64,000 nucleotides of DNA from Hyphomicrobiales bacterium (GTDB taxonomy: Bacteria > Pseudomonadota > Alphaproteobacteria > Rhizobiales > Rhizobiaceae). Below the pieces are notes generated by a model that was not told the origin of the DNA, did not search any database, and saw only the letters and a list, made by a program, of their open reading frames with translations. How positions within the stretch are numbered: position 1 is the first letter of the stretch; each line of letters starts with the position of its first letter. The translations under genes were made by a program, and so were the position numbers. This document shows, one piece after another, positions 6,073-10,722 of this stretch. The stretch is from the NCBI GenBank assembly GCA_900469445.1, contig UBXM01000006.1, positions 1 through 64,000 of the forward strand. The letters run 5' to 3'.

Positions 6073-7290
6073 TTATCCCGTTCGTTTAAGTCCCTCACCG
6101 GCATTGGCCCGCATCAGAGCCATGAGCATAGGCCCGAGCGAGAACTCGGCACGCTCAGCTCTTGCGGTGAGGTCTCGCAGATAACCACCGGCGGAGTTGA
6201 TATGTCCTGCACGTTCGAGAATGCAGGCCAAGGCCACGGCAGCATTTTCCTGCCCCAGTGTCTCGCAGGCCTGCTGATAGGCTGACGGGCTGACGCCGAG
6301 CATCGAGCGAACCAGCACGGCCGTCCCGATGAAATCGCGCCAATTGCCGATCTGACCGCCGCTGGCATAATCCAGCATTTGCGGGCAGGCTCGCAGCACC
6401 ATGCTCAACGGGAAGGTTTTGGGCGTCTCGTGCTGCTTGAGCTTGGTTGGCTCGGATTTCGCTTCAAGCTCCTTCTCAGAGCCAGGTTCAAGTTCATAGA
6501 TGGATTCGGAATCTGAATTCTGTATGTGGCATCCATTTTGGATGTCATTGGTGTCTGTATTCTCCGTTTTTATCTGTGTTTCCAAACGATTGACGATCTC
6601 CTGACGCAAGACCTCCAGATCGCCGAGCACGGTTTCGACCACCGTCCGGTTTGGAGAGCGGGGCAGACGCGAGATCAGGGATGCATAGACGTCCTCCATC
6701 ATCTGCCAGTCGCCTTCGATACCTTCCTCGAGAGCGGCGGTCAGAAGTTTGCGGATGTCACGGCGGCAAAGGGTCAATGCTTCCTTGGCGCGCTTGAAGC
6801 GGGTCTTTTCGGCAGAGACCTGTTGTGCGAGTGCGGCAAGTTCACCGGCGCGCAGCAGCAGCGGTTCGAGATTGAAACCGAACGCTTCCTCGATTTGGCC
6901 ACCATGTCCGCGATGGGCATAACGTTTGCCGTTCGGGCTGTCGCGACGATGGATGAGACCGGCTTCGACAAGGGCTGCCAGATGACGGCGCAGGGTGGTG
7001 CCGGTTATGCCATGGGCGCGAACCGAAAGCTGCGCATTCGACGGGAAGACGACAAGCTTGTCGCCATGCCCAAGTTCGTTGCTCGGATAGAAGGTCAGCA
7101 GGGCATCGAGAACGGCAAGCGCACGGTCATGCAGACCGAGCAACTGACGTGCTTCGGAAATGTCGCGAAACACTTTCCATTTCTCGACGGGGCGCCTCAT
7201 CCGGTCGTCGGACGATTGAAGCTGGCCTTTTACCAAGGCAAGCGTCATCGGCCGCCGCCCGAAAGGCGTCGTCACAAGTCCAGTTCGCAT
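6073..7290 (-). CDS. repC: Replication initiator RepC
   Basis: A 405-residue replication initiator of repABC plasmids. It opens with the family signature SVTTPFGRRPMTLA-type sequence (here LVTTPFGRRPMTLALV at residues 5-20). The N-terminal domain carries a winged helix (SNAQLSVRAHGITGTTLRRHLAALVEAGLIHRRDS, about residues 83-118), and the C-terminal domain (about 295-405) contains the QIGNWRDFIGTAVLVRSMLGVS segment typical of RepC. RepC is the essential initiator, and in studied repABC replicons the origin lies inside repC. It is last in the repA-repB-repC operon, and its expression is expected to be limited by the antisense RNA encoded just upstream. Length is normal for the family; no break is seen. 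Confidence 0.95.
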   Translation of the reverse strand: MRTGLVTTPFGRRPMTLALVKGQLQSSDDRMRRPVEKWKVFRDISEARQLLGLHDRALAVLDALLTFYPSNELGHGDKLVVFPSNAQLSVRAHGITGTTLRRHLAALVEAGLIHRRDSPNGKRYAHRGHGGQIEEAFGFNLEPLLLRAGELAALAQQVSAEKTRFKRAKEALTLCRRDIRKLLTAALEEGIEGDWQMMEDVYASLISRLPRSPNRTVVETVLGDLEVLRQEIVNRLETQIKTENTDTNDIQNGCHIQNSDSESIYELEPGSEKELEAKSEPTKLKQHETPKTFPLSMVLRACPQMLDYASGGQIGNWRDFIGTAVLVRSMLGVSPSAYQQACETLGQENAAVALACILERAGHINSAGGYLRDLTARAERAEFSLGPMLMALMRANAGEGLKRTG

Positions 7291-7351
7291 CTTTCACTTC
7301 ACCTTTCTTCAGGCAAAAGAAAGCCGCTCACCAAAACGGTGCCAAAAACTC

Positions 7352-7380
7352 TTGACTGTGATTCGTGGAAATGCGATTCT
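7352..7380 (+). promoter_or_regulatory. Promoter of the repABC counter-transcribed RNA
   Basis: Forward-strand promoter opposite to the repABC direction: -35 TTGACT at 7352-7357, 17-bp spacer, -10 GATTCT at 7375-7380. Its position between repB and repC and its orientation match the known placement of the incompatibility antisense RNA promoter in repABC plasmids. Confidence 0.55.
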
Positions 7381-7385
7381 GCAGG

Positions 7386-7437
7386 TGCTTAATCAGAGAG
7401 AAGCTTCCACGACGGAAACGTTTTGGGGGCTTTTTTC
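7386..7437 (+). ncRNA. incA: Counter-transcribed antisense RNA (ctRNA/IncA) of repABC
   Basis: The repB-repC gap (7291-7450) encodes on the opposite strand a predicted RNA of about 50 nt. It starts about six bases after the -10 box and ends in an intrinsic terminator: AAGCTTCC (7401-7408) pairs with GGGGGCTT (7425-7432) with two G-U pairs, and a T-run follows (7431-7436). In repABC replicons such RNAs bind the repC leader and block repC expression, acting as copy-number control and incompatibility factor. The size, position, strand and terminator are as expected; the exact ends are estimated. Confidence 0.7.
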
Positions 7438-7450
7438 TTTTGGTCGGTTC

Positions 7451-8431
7451 CTATTCCTTCATGAGACGACGATATTCGGCGTAAAGGTCGTCGAGGCTGT
7501 CGGCGATGAATTCACCAAAACCAACAGCGTCCCTGGCCTTCAGCGCCAAAGTGTAATTCTTTCCATCATTGCGGATCTCGGCCGAAACGGCCCGCGCAAC
7601 GTTCTTGTCCTTCGGTACCCATTTCGACTTCTTCGGCGATTTCGCATAACCGACGATCTTCTTGCGGGTCAGCGCATCGAAAACGAAGGCAAAGCGGGCG
7701 TCGCCATTGAGGCCGGTAAGGTCGGTCGCAGCCAGAACCTCGCGCAACTTGGCGAGATTGGCAGGCTTTTCCAGAAGCAGTTTCAACTCGTACCAGCGGT
7801 CTCGGCCTGGCAGCTTGGCGCCGCCGATCGCTTCCAGAATGTCGCGAGGCATGTTGGCGACGGACATCATCTTGGACAATGTCGCCTTATCCACAGATAA
7901 GGCGGTCATCACAATCGTGCTGTCATTGTCGTAATGTAACTCTGAAAGCCGACGAGCAAAGGTTGCCTTTTCTATGAACGAAAGATTGGCGCGAGCGGAA
8001 TTTTCCTGCCCCTGGGCAATGACATGCTCACGGTCGGAGATCGGCTTGACCACCGCGCGGACATTGCGCTCGAGCAGGGTTGCAGCCTTCAGCCGGCGAT
8101 GGCCGAACACGACCATATAGCGGCCGTCATGATGCGGGTGAGGGCGAACAAGAATGGGGCTTGTTTGTCCATGTTCGCGGATCGCGGCAACGAGATCGTC
8201 GAATTCCTGCGGGTCTTCTTCAAGACGGTCGCGGATGAAGGATTCCTCGATAACGTCCGGGGAAAGCTCGACGACCGTTTCGCCTTCCAGCATCTTGTCG
8301 GCGCGCTCCGCCAGCTCGTCGATCGTCGAGATGATCGAGCGGGACGCGCCCTTGACCGTATAATCGAGTGCCACGCCGTTATCCGGCCGGTCCTCGTTCA
8401 TCAGATTGGCAAACGGGTTCTTGCGCGCCAT
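7451..8431 (-). CDS. repB: Plasmid partition protein RepB (ParB family)
   Basis: A 326-residue ParB-family centromere-binding protein. It begins ARKNPFANLM, the conserved RepB N-terminus. The ParB/Spo0J nuclease-like domain lies around residues 60-150, with the ILVRPHPHHDGRYMVVFGHRRLKA box, and a central helix-turn-helix follows near residues 185-205 (TALSVDKATLSKMMSVANMP). RepB binds parS sites and works with RepA in segregation, and also strengthens autorepression. The repA stop TGA overlaps the repB ATG by one base (TGATG), so translation is probably coupled; an in-frame GTG one codon earlier is an alternative start. Confidence 0.94.
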   Translation of the reverse strand: MARKNPFANLMNEDRPDNGVALDYTVKGASRSIISTIDELAERADKMLEGETVVELSPDVIEESFIRDRLEEDPQEFDDLVAAIREHGQTSPILVRPHPHHDGRYMVVFGHRRLKAATLLERNVRAVVKPISDREHVIAQGQENSARANLSFIEKATFARRLSELHYDNDSTIVMTALSVDKATLSKMMSVANMPRDILEAIGGAKLPGRDRWYELKLLLEKPANLAKLREVLAATDLTGLNGDARFAFVFDALTRKKIVGYAKSPKKSKWVPKDKNVARAVSAEIRNDGKNYTLALKARDAVGFGEFIADSLDDLYAEYRRLMKE

Positions 8432-9627
8432 CACATTCTCCCCCAGGCGCTGTGGATCAGCCCCTGTATCTCGAAATTGACGCTGTCCATGCAGTCGATG
8501 GCGCGGTCATAGGTTTCGCGGGTGAAATTGGCGCGCTCGACTTCGTAAAGCGTCTGCTTGGTAAGGCCGGCATCGGAGATTGCCGTCGACTTGACCATCG
8601 GGTTCTTGAGAATTTCCTCCGCCAGCATCGACTGCATGAAACCGAGCATCTGCGCCTGCGGCACGTCCGTCGGCTCGTATCGGGTGATCAGGTAGCGCAG
8701 CCAGTCCATCTCGACATTGGCGCCGGCGCGCTTGATCGTTTTGATAATGTTGCCGAGCATCAGCAGGAACTGGCTCATCGACATGAGATCAAGCATCTGC
8801 GGATGAACGGTGATCAGCACCGAGGTTGAAGCCGTCAAGGCCGTCAGCGTCAGGTAACCGAGCTGCGGAGGGCAGTCGACGATGACGACGTCGTAACGGT
8901 CCTCGACCTCTCGCAGCGCCTTACCTAGCCGGGTAAAGAAGCGCTTGCCCTCGTTGGAGGTCTGCATCGCCAGTGGGGTATCGTATTCGTATTCCTGCAG
9001 TTCCAGATTGGCCGGAATGATGTCCAGGTCCGGAAAATTGGTCTGCTGGATGATGTCGGCAAGCGGCTTCTTCTCGTCATCATAACGGATCGCGTCATAA
9101 AGCGAGGGGTTCCTGTCCAACTCCGGCTGAAAACCGTGCAGGGCAGACAGCGATGCCTGAGGGTCGAGGTCGATGGCAAGAACGCGGTGACCGGTCAGCG
9201 CCAGATGCTGGGCCAGATGGGCCGTCGTCGTCGTTTTGCCCGAGCCGCCCTTGAAGTTGACGACCGCTATGACCTGCAGCTTGTCACCTTCCTTGCGGTG
9301 GGGGACGTATTTCTTGGCGTCGGATTTGCCGGTCTTGTCGAGGAAAAACCGCAATTCCCGCATCTGTTCGCCGGTATAGAATCGCCGGCCGCCGGTGGAT
9401 GTCGTCGGCGTTGGTCCCTTGCCTTCAAGATGGAGGCGCTTCAAATTGTTCGGGCTGACGCCGAGATAATGCGCAACTTCGGCCATCGAGAACTTGCGCA
9501 ACGTCTTCCTCGCGTTCGGAGGAAACTTTTCCATCCGAAGCTGGTCGAGCCGACGCGAGATCTCTGCACCTTGAAGCAGGATCTTCTCGTCAAACTCAAA
9601 GGATGGCAATTTCGAATGCGCGTTCAT
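8431..9627 (-). CDS. repA: Plasmid partition ATPase RepA (ParA family)
   Basis: A 398-residue ParA-type Walker ATPase of the repABC cassette. Residues about 40-100 form a MerR-like DNA-binding part (FSMAEVAHYLGVSPNNLKRLHLEGKGP, GGRRFYTGEQM) that lets RepA repress its own promoter. The deviant Walker A is VNFKGGSGKTTTTAHLAQ at about residue 125, followed by LAIDLDPQASLSALHG and VIVDCPPQLGYLTL. It segregates the replicon with RepB. The start at ATG 9627 was chosen because family members start a similar distance before the DNA-binding part; a TTG seven codons upstream is possible, and neither has a strong Shine-Dalgarno. A promoter and inverted repeat lie 35-75 bases upstream. Confidence 0.94.
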   Translation of the reverse strand: MNAHSKLPSFEFDEKILLQGAEISRRLDQLRMEKFPPNARKTLRKFSMAEVAHYLGVSPNNLKRLHLEGKGPTPTTSTGGRRFYTGEQMRELRFFLDKTGKSDAKKYVPHRKEGDKLQVIAVVNFKGGSGKTTTTAHLAQHLALTGHRVLAIDLDPQASLSALHGFQPELDRNPSLYDAIRYDDEKKPLADIIQQTNFPDLDIIPANLELQEYEYDTPLAMQTSNEGKRFFTRLGKALREVEDRYDVVIVDCPPQLGYLTLTALTASTSVLITVHPQMLDLMSMSQFLLMLGNIIKTIKRAGANVEMDWLRYLITRYEPTDVPQAQMLGFMQSMLAEEILKNPMVKSTAISDAGLTKQTLYEVERANFTRETYDRAIDCMDSVNFEIQGLIHSAWGRM

Positions 9628-9661
9628 ATGGAACCGTTCTGGCGACAAAACTCAAGTTTCT

Positions 9662-9989: not shown

Positions 9990-10026
9990 TTGCAAAGACT
10001 CAATCCTTCTTTTAGAATCATTCTAA
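9990..10026 (+). promoter_or_regulatory. Promoter with embedded Irr-type iron box
   Basis: A perfect 15-bp palindrome TTAGAATCATTCTAA (10012-10026) matches the rhizobial Irr box (TTTAGAA-N3-TTCTAAA class). It overlaps the -10 TAGAAT (10013-10018) of a promoter whose -35 is TTGCAA (9990-9995, 17-bp spacer). Irr bound here would cover the -10 box, so repression under iron limitation is expected. The target gene begins at 10083. Confidence 0.7.
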
Positions 10027-10082
10027 GATTTATGAGTTTGGGTCTCAGGTTTTGAGCCCAACATTTGAAGAAGGAGAGCCAC

Positions 10083-10283
10083 ATGTCCAAAGATAATTCC
10101 TGCAAGGCCTGCTCGTTTTATGAAGATCACGTCGTAAACGCCGGTGCGGCACCGGTTGACGCTGGCCTCTGTCGTTTCAACCCGCCGGTCACGCAGCCGG
10201 CGGCCGATGCCCGCGGCTTCTGGCCGGTGGTTTCCGCCAACGACTGGTGCGGCCAGTTCGACGGCGACGCCAAGGCTGCTTGA
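10083..10283 (+). CDS. Small four-cysteine protein under an Irr box
   Basis: A 66-residue cytoplasmic protein with no signal peptide and four cysteines: CKAC at residues 7-10, LCRFNPP at 30, and DWCGQF at 56. The CxxC...C...WC spacing with aromatic residues nearby recalls small Fe-S or metal-binding proteins such as high-potential iron-sulfur proteins, but I cannot assign a family with certainty. AAGGAGAG stands five bases before the ATG at 10083; a TTG at 10065 is in frame but less likely. The promoter carries a perfect Irr-type palindrome and an intrinsic terminator follows, so it is a monocistronic, iron-responsive gene. Being switched off when iron is short would suit an iron-containing product; this is inference. 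Confidence 0.8.
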   Translation: MSKDNSCKACSFYEDHVVNAGAAPVDAGLCRFNPPVTQPAADARGFWPVVSANDWCGQFDGDAKAA

Positions 10284-10307
10284 TAGCGCCAGGTGATCGA
10301 CAATCAG

Positions 10308-10334
10308 AAAGGGCGGCTTCGGGGCCGCCCTTTT
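10308..10334 (+). terminator. Rho-independent terminator
   Basis: GGGCGGC (10311-10317) pairs perfectly with GCCGCCC (10324-10330) around a TTCGGG loop, extended by AAA/TTTT, with a T-rich tail. It lies 27 bases after the four-cysteine protein gene. Confidence 0.85.
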
Positions 10335-10551
10335 CTTTTGTCGAAGTCTTCGAAGTGGGAAGGCGCGGCGCTCCGCTCCGCCGAACTTCAGGGGTGATCT
10401 TTCGACGGCCGGAGACAAGGCCCTAGACCAGCCCGCCCGCCTCCGAATTTTTCAGACCGTGGGTGGGGGCATGCCGGAGCCTTCACGCGCAATCGGGGAT
10501 AGGCCAACGATCCTCGTTGGCTTTCGACAAGGGCTCGGCTAGAACATCTGC

Positions 10552-10722
10552 ATGAACGACAATGTCCTCAAGTTTCAGCGGCCGAAACAGCCGAAGCCAC
10601 CGCGCCAGACGCCGCCCTGGCTGAAGCGTGTTCTCACCATTCTGGCCGTGATCGCCTTTTTCGGTGCCGTATATGCCTATTTCAGCCTGGCTGGAGCTCC
10701 TCCGCAGGGCCTTCCTGGCTGA
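10552..10722 (+). CDS. Small single-span membrane protein
   Basis: A 56-residue reading frame: MNDNVLKFQRPKQPKPPRQT, then PPWLKR, a hydrophobic segment at about residues 27-48 (VLTILAVIAFFGAVYAYFSLA) and a short Gly/Pro tail. The proline/basic N-terminus followed by one transmembrane helix resembles conserved small hypothetical proteins seen in Rhizobiales. It probably sits in the inner membrane with the N-terminus inside. No good Shine-Dalgarno is visible, and there is no clear link to the neighbours. I do not know a function. Confidence 0.55.
   Translation: MNDNVLKFQRPKQPKPPRQTPPWLKRVLTILAVIAFFGAVYAYFSLAGAPPQGLPG

Follow-up and report, generated by a model that had tools for sequence, protein, structure and literature searches.

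High-potential iron-sulfur proteins (HiPIPs, PF01355) are usually regarded as electron carriers of the periplasm, and their cousins as subunits that belong to a small number of anaerobic enzymes. The small subunits of glycyl radical enzymes considered here are BssC/TutF (PF08201), BssB/TutG (PF18512), HPIP_like (PF18524), MASS gamma and MASS beta, and the 4-HPAD small subunit. According to passages of two papers (PMC12358834, PMC12590467), the HiPIP-like subunits of these enzymes have a CX2CXnCXnC motif, carry a [4Fe-4S] cluster and vary in the spacing of the third and fourth cysteines. The passages of PMC12358834 give Cys32, 35, 51 and 86 as the cluster ligands of MASS beta and CX2CXnCXnC as the motif of MASS gamma. 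For the regulator, the closest described system is the Irr regulon. In R. sphaeroides, Irr binds the box at mbfA according to passages of PMC3413700. For Brucella, passages of PMC3413700 and PMC10374146 place an MbfA-like gene among the Irr targets, and a Brucella Irr study, in its passages on targets, names two hypothetical proteins among them. The Irr passages of PMC3413700, PMC10374146, PMC9409073 and PMC5082802 do not name the family of 66-aa proteins described below.

We analyzed 64,000 nt of contig UBXM01000006.1 (GCA_900469445.1; positions 1-64,000 of the forward strand), which we call the window. The feature under study occupies positions 9990-10283, and its elements, together with the terminator that follows, are as follows.

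9990-9995, plus strand: -35 hexamer TTGCAA, from a promoter scan; TTG is invariant in eight of eight aligned Rhizobiaceae loci
10013-10018, plus strand: -10 hexamer TAGAAT, within the Irr box and 17 nt from the -35 hexamer
10011-10026, strandless: predicted Irr box (ICE) TTTAGAATCATTCTAA, a perfect palindrome overlapping the -10 hexamer
10071-10076, plus strand: Shine-Dalgarno sequence AAGGAG, 6 nt ahead of the ATG
10083-10283, plus strand: gene for the 66-aa four-cysteine protein, stop codon included (ATG at 10083, stop at 10281-10283)
10307-10344, plus strand: intrinsic terminator, a 12-pair stem (10307-10334) and then the tail CTTTTGTCGA

The original prediction had described a promoter with a 17-bp spacer, a perfect palindrome over its -10 box, a Shine-Dalgarno sequence followed by a 66-residue CxxC...C...WC protein, and an intrinsic terminator. 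All of these were found: the promoter is TTGCAA/TAGAAT at 9990-10018, the palindrome covers 10011-10026, the ribosome-binding site and the protein gene follow it, and the terminator lies just beyond the stretch that had been assigned to the feature. The promoter matches the consensus at nine of 12 positions. Three promoter-like sites were found in 921 scanned bases (0.2 expected in shuffles), a count in which the palindrome also scores a mirror-image match on the minus strand. The terminator pattern by itself is within chance (one site; 1.6 in shuffles). The folding energy of 10284-10345 is -30.9 kcal/mol (z -4.2), and none of 200 shuffles was equally good. The cysteines of the protein are Cys7, Cys10, Cys30 and Cys56, and its motifs are DAGLCRxNPP, WPVV and DWCG.

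The window is a repABC replicon (plasmid). repABC is located at 6073-9648, with ctRNA_p42d (7397-7443) and the S-element (7291-7357), and the 66-aa gene is divergent from repA. On the 3' side of the terminator, at 10552-10722, there is a 56-aa ORF that probably has one membrane segment and that matched no Pfam or NCBIfam family above the curated cut-off.

The host genome comprises 6.29 Mb in 79 contigs. Within the 64 kb, TTAGAATCATTCTAA (10012-10026) with up to two mismatches occurs at one place (0.03 expected). The 6.29-Mb genome contains the perfect palindrome TTAGAANNNTTCTAA twice, as compared with about 0.06 places expected by our own estimate at 60% GC (five stretches measured 58-61% GC). 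TTAGAATNATTCTAA with up to one mismatch detects the same two places, and the reversed pattern detects none. The second perfect palindrome is immediately adjacent to the point at which an ORF for MbfA (NCBIfam equivalog, 572 bits; cut-off 450) is predicted to start. Thus, the gene of an iron exporter bears the same perfect box as the 66-aa gene. When one mismatch in TTAGAANNNTTCTAA was allowed, two further places appeared, at suf and nfu genes. One lies ahead of a cysteine desulfurase gene, about 130 nt from its likely start (another in-frame ATG is closer), and sufB- and sufC-like ORFs follow this gene; these suf names come from reading the translations. The other is 33 nt ahead of a gene for an Nfu-type scaffold (Nfu_N and NifU domains). 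It should be mentioned that the number of one-mismatch boxes is not above chance, because the reversed pattern gives five places and the true pattern two. What is telling is the location: all four places that resemble the box are at iron genes, at Fe-S genes or at the 66-aa gene itself. As in the Irr regulon (mbfA, suf, nfu and others), the same box is present at the 66-aa gene, and its form there is perfect, as at mbfA.

Three Fur-family genes are present in the genome. One encodes IrrA (NCBIfam equivalog, 227.7 bits; cut-off 150), and the remaining two resemble Fur/Mur and Zur, below those equivalog cut-offs. PerR-type boxes resemble the Irr box. The box might therefore be read by another Fur-family protein, for which the Fur/Mur-like and Zur-like genes would be candidates, or the gene might serve maintenance of the plasmid, given that repABC is next door and that three close relatives (L014, L016 and L018) have a repB-like ORF in the vicinity of the gene. 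However, the same perfect box is found in this genome at mbfA, which is bound by Irr elsewhere, no rep gene lies within 8 kb of the gene in Neorhizobium pNCHU2750b, and the neighbors in ten annotated regions are common to near relatives only. We consider both ideas very improbable, and a role as a partner of repABC was rejected. Control through an Irr box, as the original prediction had proposed, is well supported as a prediction by the presence of IrrA, by the shared perfect box at mbfA and by the retention of the box in many orthologues. We infer that Irr would bind the palindrome, and likewise the direction of the iron response.

The upstream regions of relatives were compared. In eight aligned Rhizobiaceae loci, which were picked from loci having a box, TTTAGAAT-N-ATTCTA is invariant in all eight; it is the only long invariant block, the other invariant runs being at most 3 nt. 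We then compared 150 nt of upstream sequence with the 12 fixed bases and scored the best match. At least nine bases matched in 71 of 79 loci and at least ten in 61 of 79, a set which includes the locus of the window, one non-orthologue (L012) and many sister species. After thinning to cut near-copies, the box reached at least nine in 28 of 44 loci and at least ten in 24 of 44. The distance from box to ATG is 38-72 nt in 27 of these 28 loci and 98 nt in one. The boxed loci of the thinned set belong to Rhizobiaceae, Mesorhizobium, Microvirga, Chelatococcus, Beijerinckiaceae, Salinarimonas, Methylobacterium and a few Rhodobacterales (Falsirhodobacter, Cereibacter, Rhodobacter xinxiangensis, Epibacterium and Paracoccus onchidii). 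The box of P. onchidii (9/12) is weak, since 11% of shuffles were equally good. No box of nine or more was found in the other 16 of the 44 loci. Rhodobacterales account for 11 of these loci, out of the 16 Rhodobacterales in the thinned set (three Thioclava, four Paracoccus, Salipiger, Rhodovulum, R. capsulatus and Pacificibacter), and the others are Afifella and four more. The reversed motif reached at least nine in 12 of 44 loci and at least ten in four of 44. These reversed scores are inflated in Rhizobium because, by our explanation, the box plus its flank (AATCATTCTAAGATT) itself scores high on the reversed motif. The box appears to be old and to have been kept in several lineages, without being universal.

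A different conserved upstream element was also observed. It resembles TCAACTATTTGnTTTTnTTGA, is often followed by a TTGAC -35 sequence and sits 45-136 nt ahead of the assigned start codon. This element was found in 17 of 24 loci listed, mostly from Rhodobacterales (L088, L491, L033, L489, L490, L090, L488, L492, L036, L041, L030, L031, L086, L146, L077, L025 and L032). With up to one mismatch, it occurs at nine places in seven genomes, four of which are at a gene of the 66-aa family. Leaders with repeated CCAGCCAGCC-like units are present at L088, L491, L489, L490, L086, L150 and L146. L495 and L499 have the TCAACTATTTGnTTTTnTTGA-like element and, directly after it, a CCAGCCAGCC-type leader without an obvious protein gene, and these leaders are perhaps small RNAs. 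An Rfam scan of seven loci gave no match.

The protein of the window matched no Pfam family (up to E 10) and no NCBIfam family. A search of 84,980 species genomes gave 73 loci that encode close relatives, and 33 of 72,556 plasmid records encode them as well. In a family sample, seven of 199 genomes matched, two of them (L012 and L013) distantly. The distribution of the gene is patchy, and each of six Methylobacterium assemblies has three loci. For the alignment of the close family, 27 of 65 distinct predicted proteins were used. The four cysteines are invariant in all 27, as are GLCR, NPP (the two separated by one variable residue), G, W-P, V, D-W and G.

The neighbors of the gene in the ten annotated regions vary beyond near relatives. 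dapA and peptide-transport genes are common to the window and Neorhizobium, two Paracoccus plasmids share phosphonate genes, two Methylobacterium plasmids share a 3'-5' exonuclease gene, and two Thioclava copies adjoin siderophore or haem uptake genes. The automatic clustering of neighbors mostly joined wrong-frame ORFs, and only the repB-like neighbor was used from it. Several unusual members were also observed. L164 encodes, at about 1489-1656 on the minus strand, a relative whose long N-terminal part resembles a signal peptide and which is possibly an exported version; the genome of this relative (G820) also holds a close copy. In L154, one ORF contains the four-cysteine domain twice in tandem, the second being degenerate. 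In L079 (Methylobacterium sp. NEAU K), an in-frame stop codon is located at the conserved Trp of DWCG, which reflects either decay of this copy or an error in sequencing.

More distant relatives are found in viral contigs, which were scanned twice with patterns for the C-terminal WPx[V/T]...DWCG motif (at least 120 loci each). All four cysteines were in the same open frame in 225 of the 240 viral loci listed, which had been fetched by the C-terminal motif alone. When 31 more loci were added, this was the case for 252 of the 271 listed (223 distinct fragments). A search of the phage collection with the window protein gave no match up to E 1. Two phage-homologue queries gave weak matches in named phages (seven and two records; E 1e-4 to 8e-2), and the four cysteines are present in two of the three named-phage loci that we inspected (L503 and L505). 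Their neighbors are ssb, polymerase-like, endonuclease, methyltransferase or thyX genes. The third locus (L504, near an integrase) was not confirmed on inspection.

A wide alignment was built from the window protein and 145 rows, which were hand-picked, mostly by length, from 238 thinned fragments (39 close and 199 far). These fragments were drawn from 383 candidates that match the four-cysteine pattern, and four longer than 85 aa were dropped. In the 146 rows, the spacing is C-x2-C-x(7-26)-C-x(17-35)-C; the invariance of Cys, Trp and Pro in this alignment is by construction, because the rows were chosen by the four-cysteine pattern. PHROG 15838, a phage family whose function is not known, is matched by 20 of the 146 wide-family members at E 0.001 or better (best 9e-7) and by 15 of the 27 close members at E 10 or better (best 0.0015), whereas the window protein itself reaches E 0.036 at best.

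The original prediction had noted that the cysteine and aromatic layout recalls HiPIPs, with a different spacing, and had pointed to an HMM search. The window protein and HiPIPs share the order CxxC-x-F/Y ... C ... WC-x-x-F/W/Y, with DWC in the window protein where HiPIPs have GWC. On its own, the window protein gives nothing significant: a phmmer search of the PDB gave one match, a HiPIP, at E 0.24, and the Pfam HiPIP model does not recognise the protein. The resemblance emerges, at modest single E values, when distant relatives are included. When the 146 members were compared with Pfam (E 1 or better), HIPIP was matched by 26 (best 2.3e-4), BssC_TutF by four (best 4e-4), BssB_TutG by two and HPIP_like by one, and 18 other families were matched by one member each. 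A profile search of the PDB with the 146 rows at E 10 or better gave ten matches, namely nine HiPIPs (E 0.045-2.6) and MasC (5.4). An hhalign comparison of the 146 rows with 17 HiPIPs (17 of 22 loci) gave Prob 87.9 and a score of 29.8. The maximum was 14.0 in 100 column shuffles and 19.6 in 100 shuffles with the cysteines fixed, and thus the likeness extends beyond the cysteines.

The leading matches to the predicted structure, although of low significance, are all proteins of the HiPIP fold. AlphaFold2 with the 146 diverse relatives gave a model with pLDDT 83 and pTM 0.65. In Foldseek, ranks 1-4 of seven matches were MasB, a HiPIP, the small chain of 2y8n (which we take to be 4-HPAD) and BssC, at E values of low significance (0.79-4.5), and the last three were unrelated. 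In the VIA structure comparison, 15 of 25 chains scored Z 2 or more, and the 13 listed are all HiPIPs or small subunits of glycyl radical enzymes, at low Z values (2.2-3.0). The close family alone gave Prob 12.9 against the HiPIPs in hhalign and an unusable structure model (pLDDT 47). Profile searches of the PDB with 27 and 29 rows matched only ribosomal L44 (E 0.79 and 0.28). Rubredoxin was ruled out: the protein has one CxxC only, and hhalign against 16 of 30 rubredoxin loci gave Prob 0.74 and a score of 10.2.

The spacing of the window protein is C-x2-C-x19-C-x25-C, as compared with x8-13 and x12-15 in the 17 HiPIPs. The difference that had been noted thus holds for classical HiPIPs; it does not hold for all HiPIP-like proteins, since a HiPIP-like subunit of a glycyl radical enzyme is also widely spaced according to a passage of PMC12358834. 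Because the four cysteines of MASS beta at 32, 35, 51 and 86 ligate a cluster, the wide spacing is no objection to a HiPIP fold. The window protein further differs from classical HiPIPs in that it has no signal peptide as judged by eye (it starts MSKDNSCKACSFYED), in its shorter N-terminal part and in the Irr box at its gene. Judging from profiles and the structure model, a HiPIP-like fold is likely.

With such a fold, a [4Fe-4S] cluster is the best supported candidate for the cofactor, and zinc is its main rival. The four cysteines might hold structural zinc; the protein would then be a small zinc protein, and its iron-linked control would have some other purpose. Small phage proteins with four cysteines are often zinc proteins, and single members match zinc-ribbon or zinc-finger models at E 0.012-0.2 among the 146 rows. 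Among the 27 close members, the best zinc-ribbon match (E 0.017, one member) is better than the best of the six HIPIP matches (E 0.049). However, the protein has only one CxxC knuckle, each zinc family is matched by one of the 146 members as compared with 26 for HIPIP plus matches to three further HiPIP-fold families, the first four Foldseek ranks are [4Fe-4S] proteins of the HiPIP fold, and the box is common to Fe-S assembly and iron export genes. On balance, we judge the zinc protein unlikely.

The small subunits of glycyl radical enzymes are, like the window protein, small and cytosolic, they are its nearest small cytosolic relatives by fold, and both Pfam and fold comparisons match them weakly. 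This raises the idea that the 66-aa protein is an accessory subunit like BssC/TutF or the HPAD small subunit, and the genome does encode two glycyl radical enzymes. However, both genes are on other contigs (C61 and C62; the 66-aa gene is on C51), and the enzymes match pyruvate formate-lyase and the PFL2/glycerol-dehydratase subfamily, which are not known to have such small subunits. Moreover, the family is rich in Methylobacterium, which is aerobic, and no gene for a glycyl radical enzyme is present in the ten annotated regions. Those subunits serve an enzyme, whereas the 66-aa gene is solitary. We regard the idea as extremely improbable and ruled it out because the enzymes are located elsewhere. 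In L508 (4393-6930) of this rhizobial genome, the gene of a glycyl radical enzyme of the PFL2/glycerol-dehydratase type adjoins genes that, by eye, resemble those of aldehyde metabolism or a microcompartment.

We propose that the 66-aa protein is probably a cytosolic [4Fe-4S] protein of the HiPIP fold whose synthesis Irr represses under iron limitation. With little iron (haem) available, Irr would occupy the palindrome over the -10 box, the promoter would be shut and the gene would be silent. When iron is plentiful, Irr would be released and the protein would be made along with MbfA and the suf and nfu products. Because the gene is solitary and often on plasmids, the protein must act on something that the host already has. 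Docking on a resident partner is favored because no export signal was seen by eye and the gene is solitary. Most likely, the protein would dock on a resident host protein as an electron carrier or as an accessory Fe-S module.

A protein made alongside MbfA might instead be a small Fe-S protein that acts as an iron or cluster sink or as a sensor, either as a buffer for excess iron or sulfide or by reaction with peroxide. The same kind of box at mbfA, suf and nfu is consistent with this, as are the solitary gene and the three loci in each of the six Methylobacterium assemblies. However, little iron is stored by a 7-kDa protein with a single cluster, and the many invariant residues that are not ligands (GLCR, NPP, W-P, D-W and G) suggest a docking surface. 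We give little credence to a sink or sensor as an alternative to the docking Fe-S protein. The task is the least certain part of our explanation. If the protein carries a cluster, electron transfer is our tentative first choice, an accessory module follows closely, some other task is unlikely, and a sink or sensor is decidedly so.

We found no publication on the 66-aa family in the open-access literature. The fold and the regulator have been described before; none of the papers found there describes the solitary branch with its Irr box or the viral relatives of that branch. Our broader proposal, to which we give about an even chance, is that small HiPIP-fold [4Fe-4S] proteins form a large family, as yet without a name, whose members are spread over predicted phages, plasmids and chromosomes. 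In this view, several lineages of Alphaproteobacteria have retained one branch of the family as a solitary, mobile gene under the control of Irr, so that an accessory Fe-S protein, perhaps derived from phages, is made only if the iron supply permits. The protein, at 7 kDa, would be easy to purify and test, and phage annotators would gain a testable cofactor for a small protein that lacks an assigned function. If the proposal is true, the Irr regulon would gain an uncharacterised gene whose box has been kept in several alphaproteobacterial lineages, and a stand-alone cytosolic HiPIP branch in hundreds of predicted viral contigs would widen the known roles of the fold.
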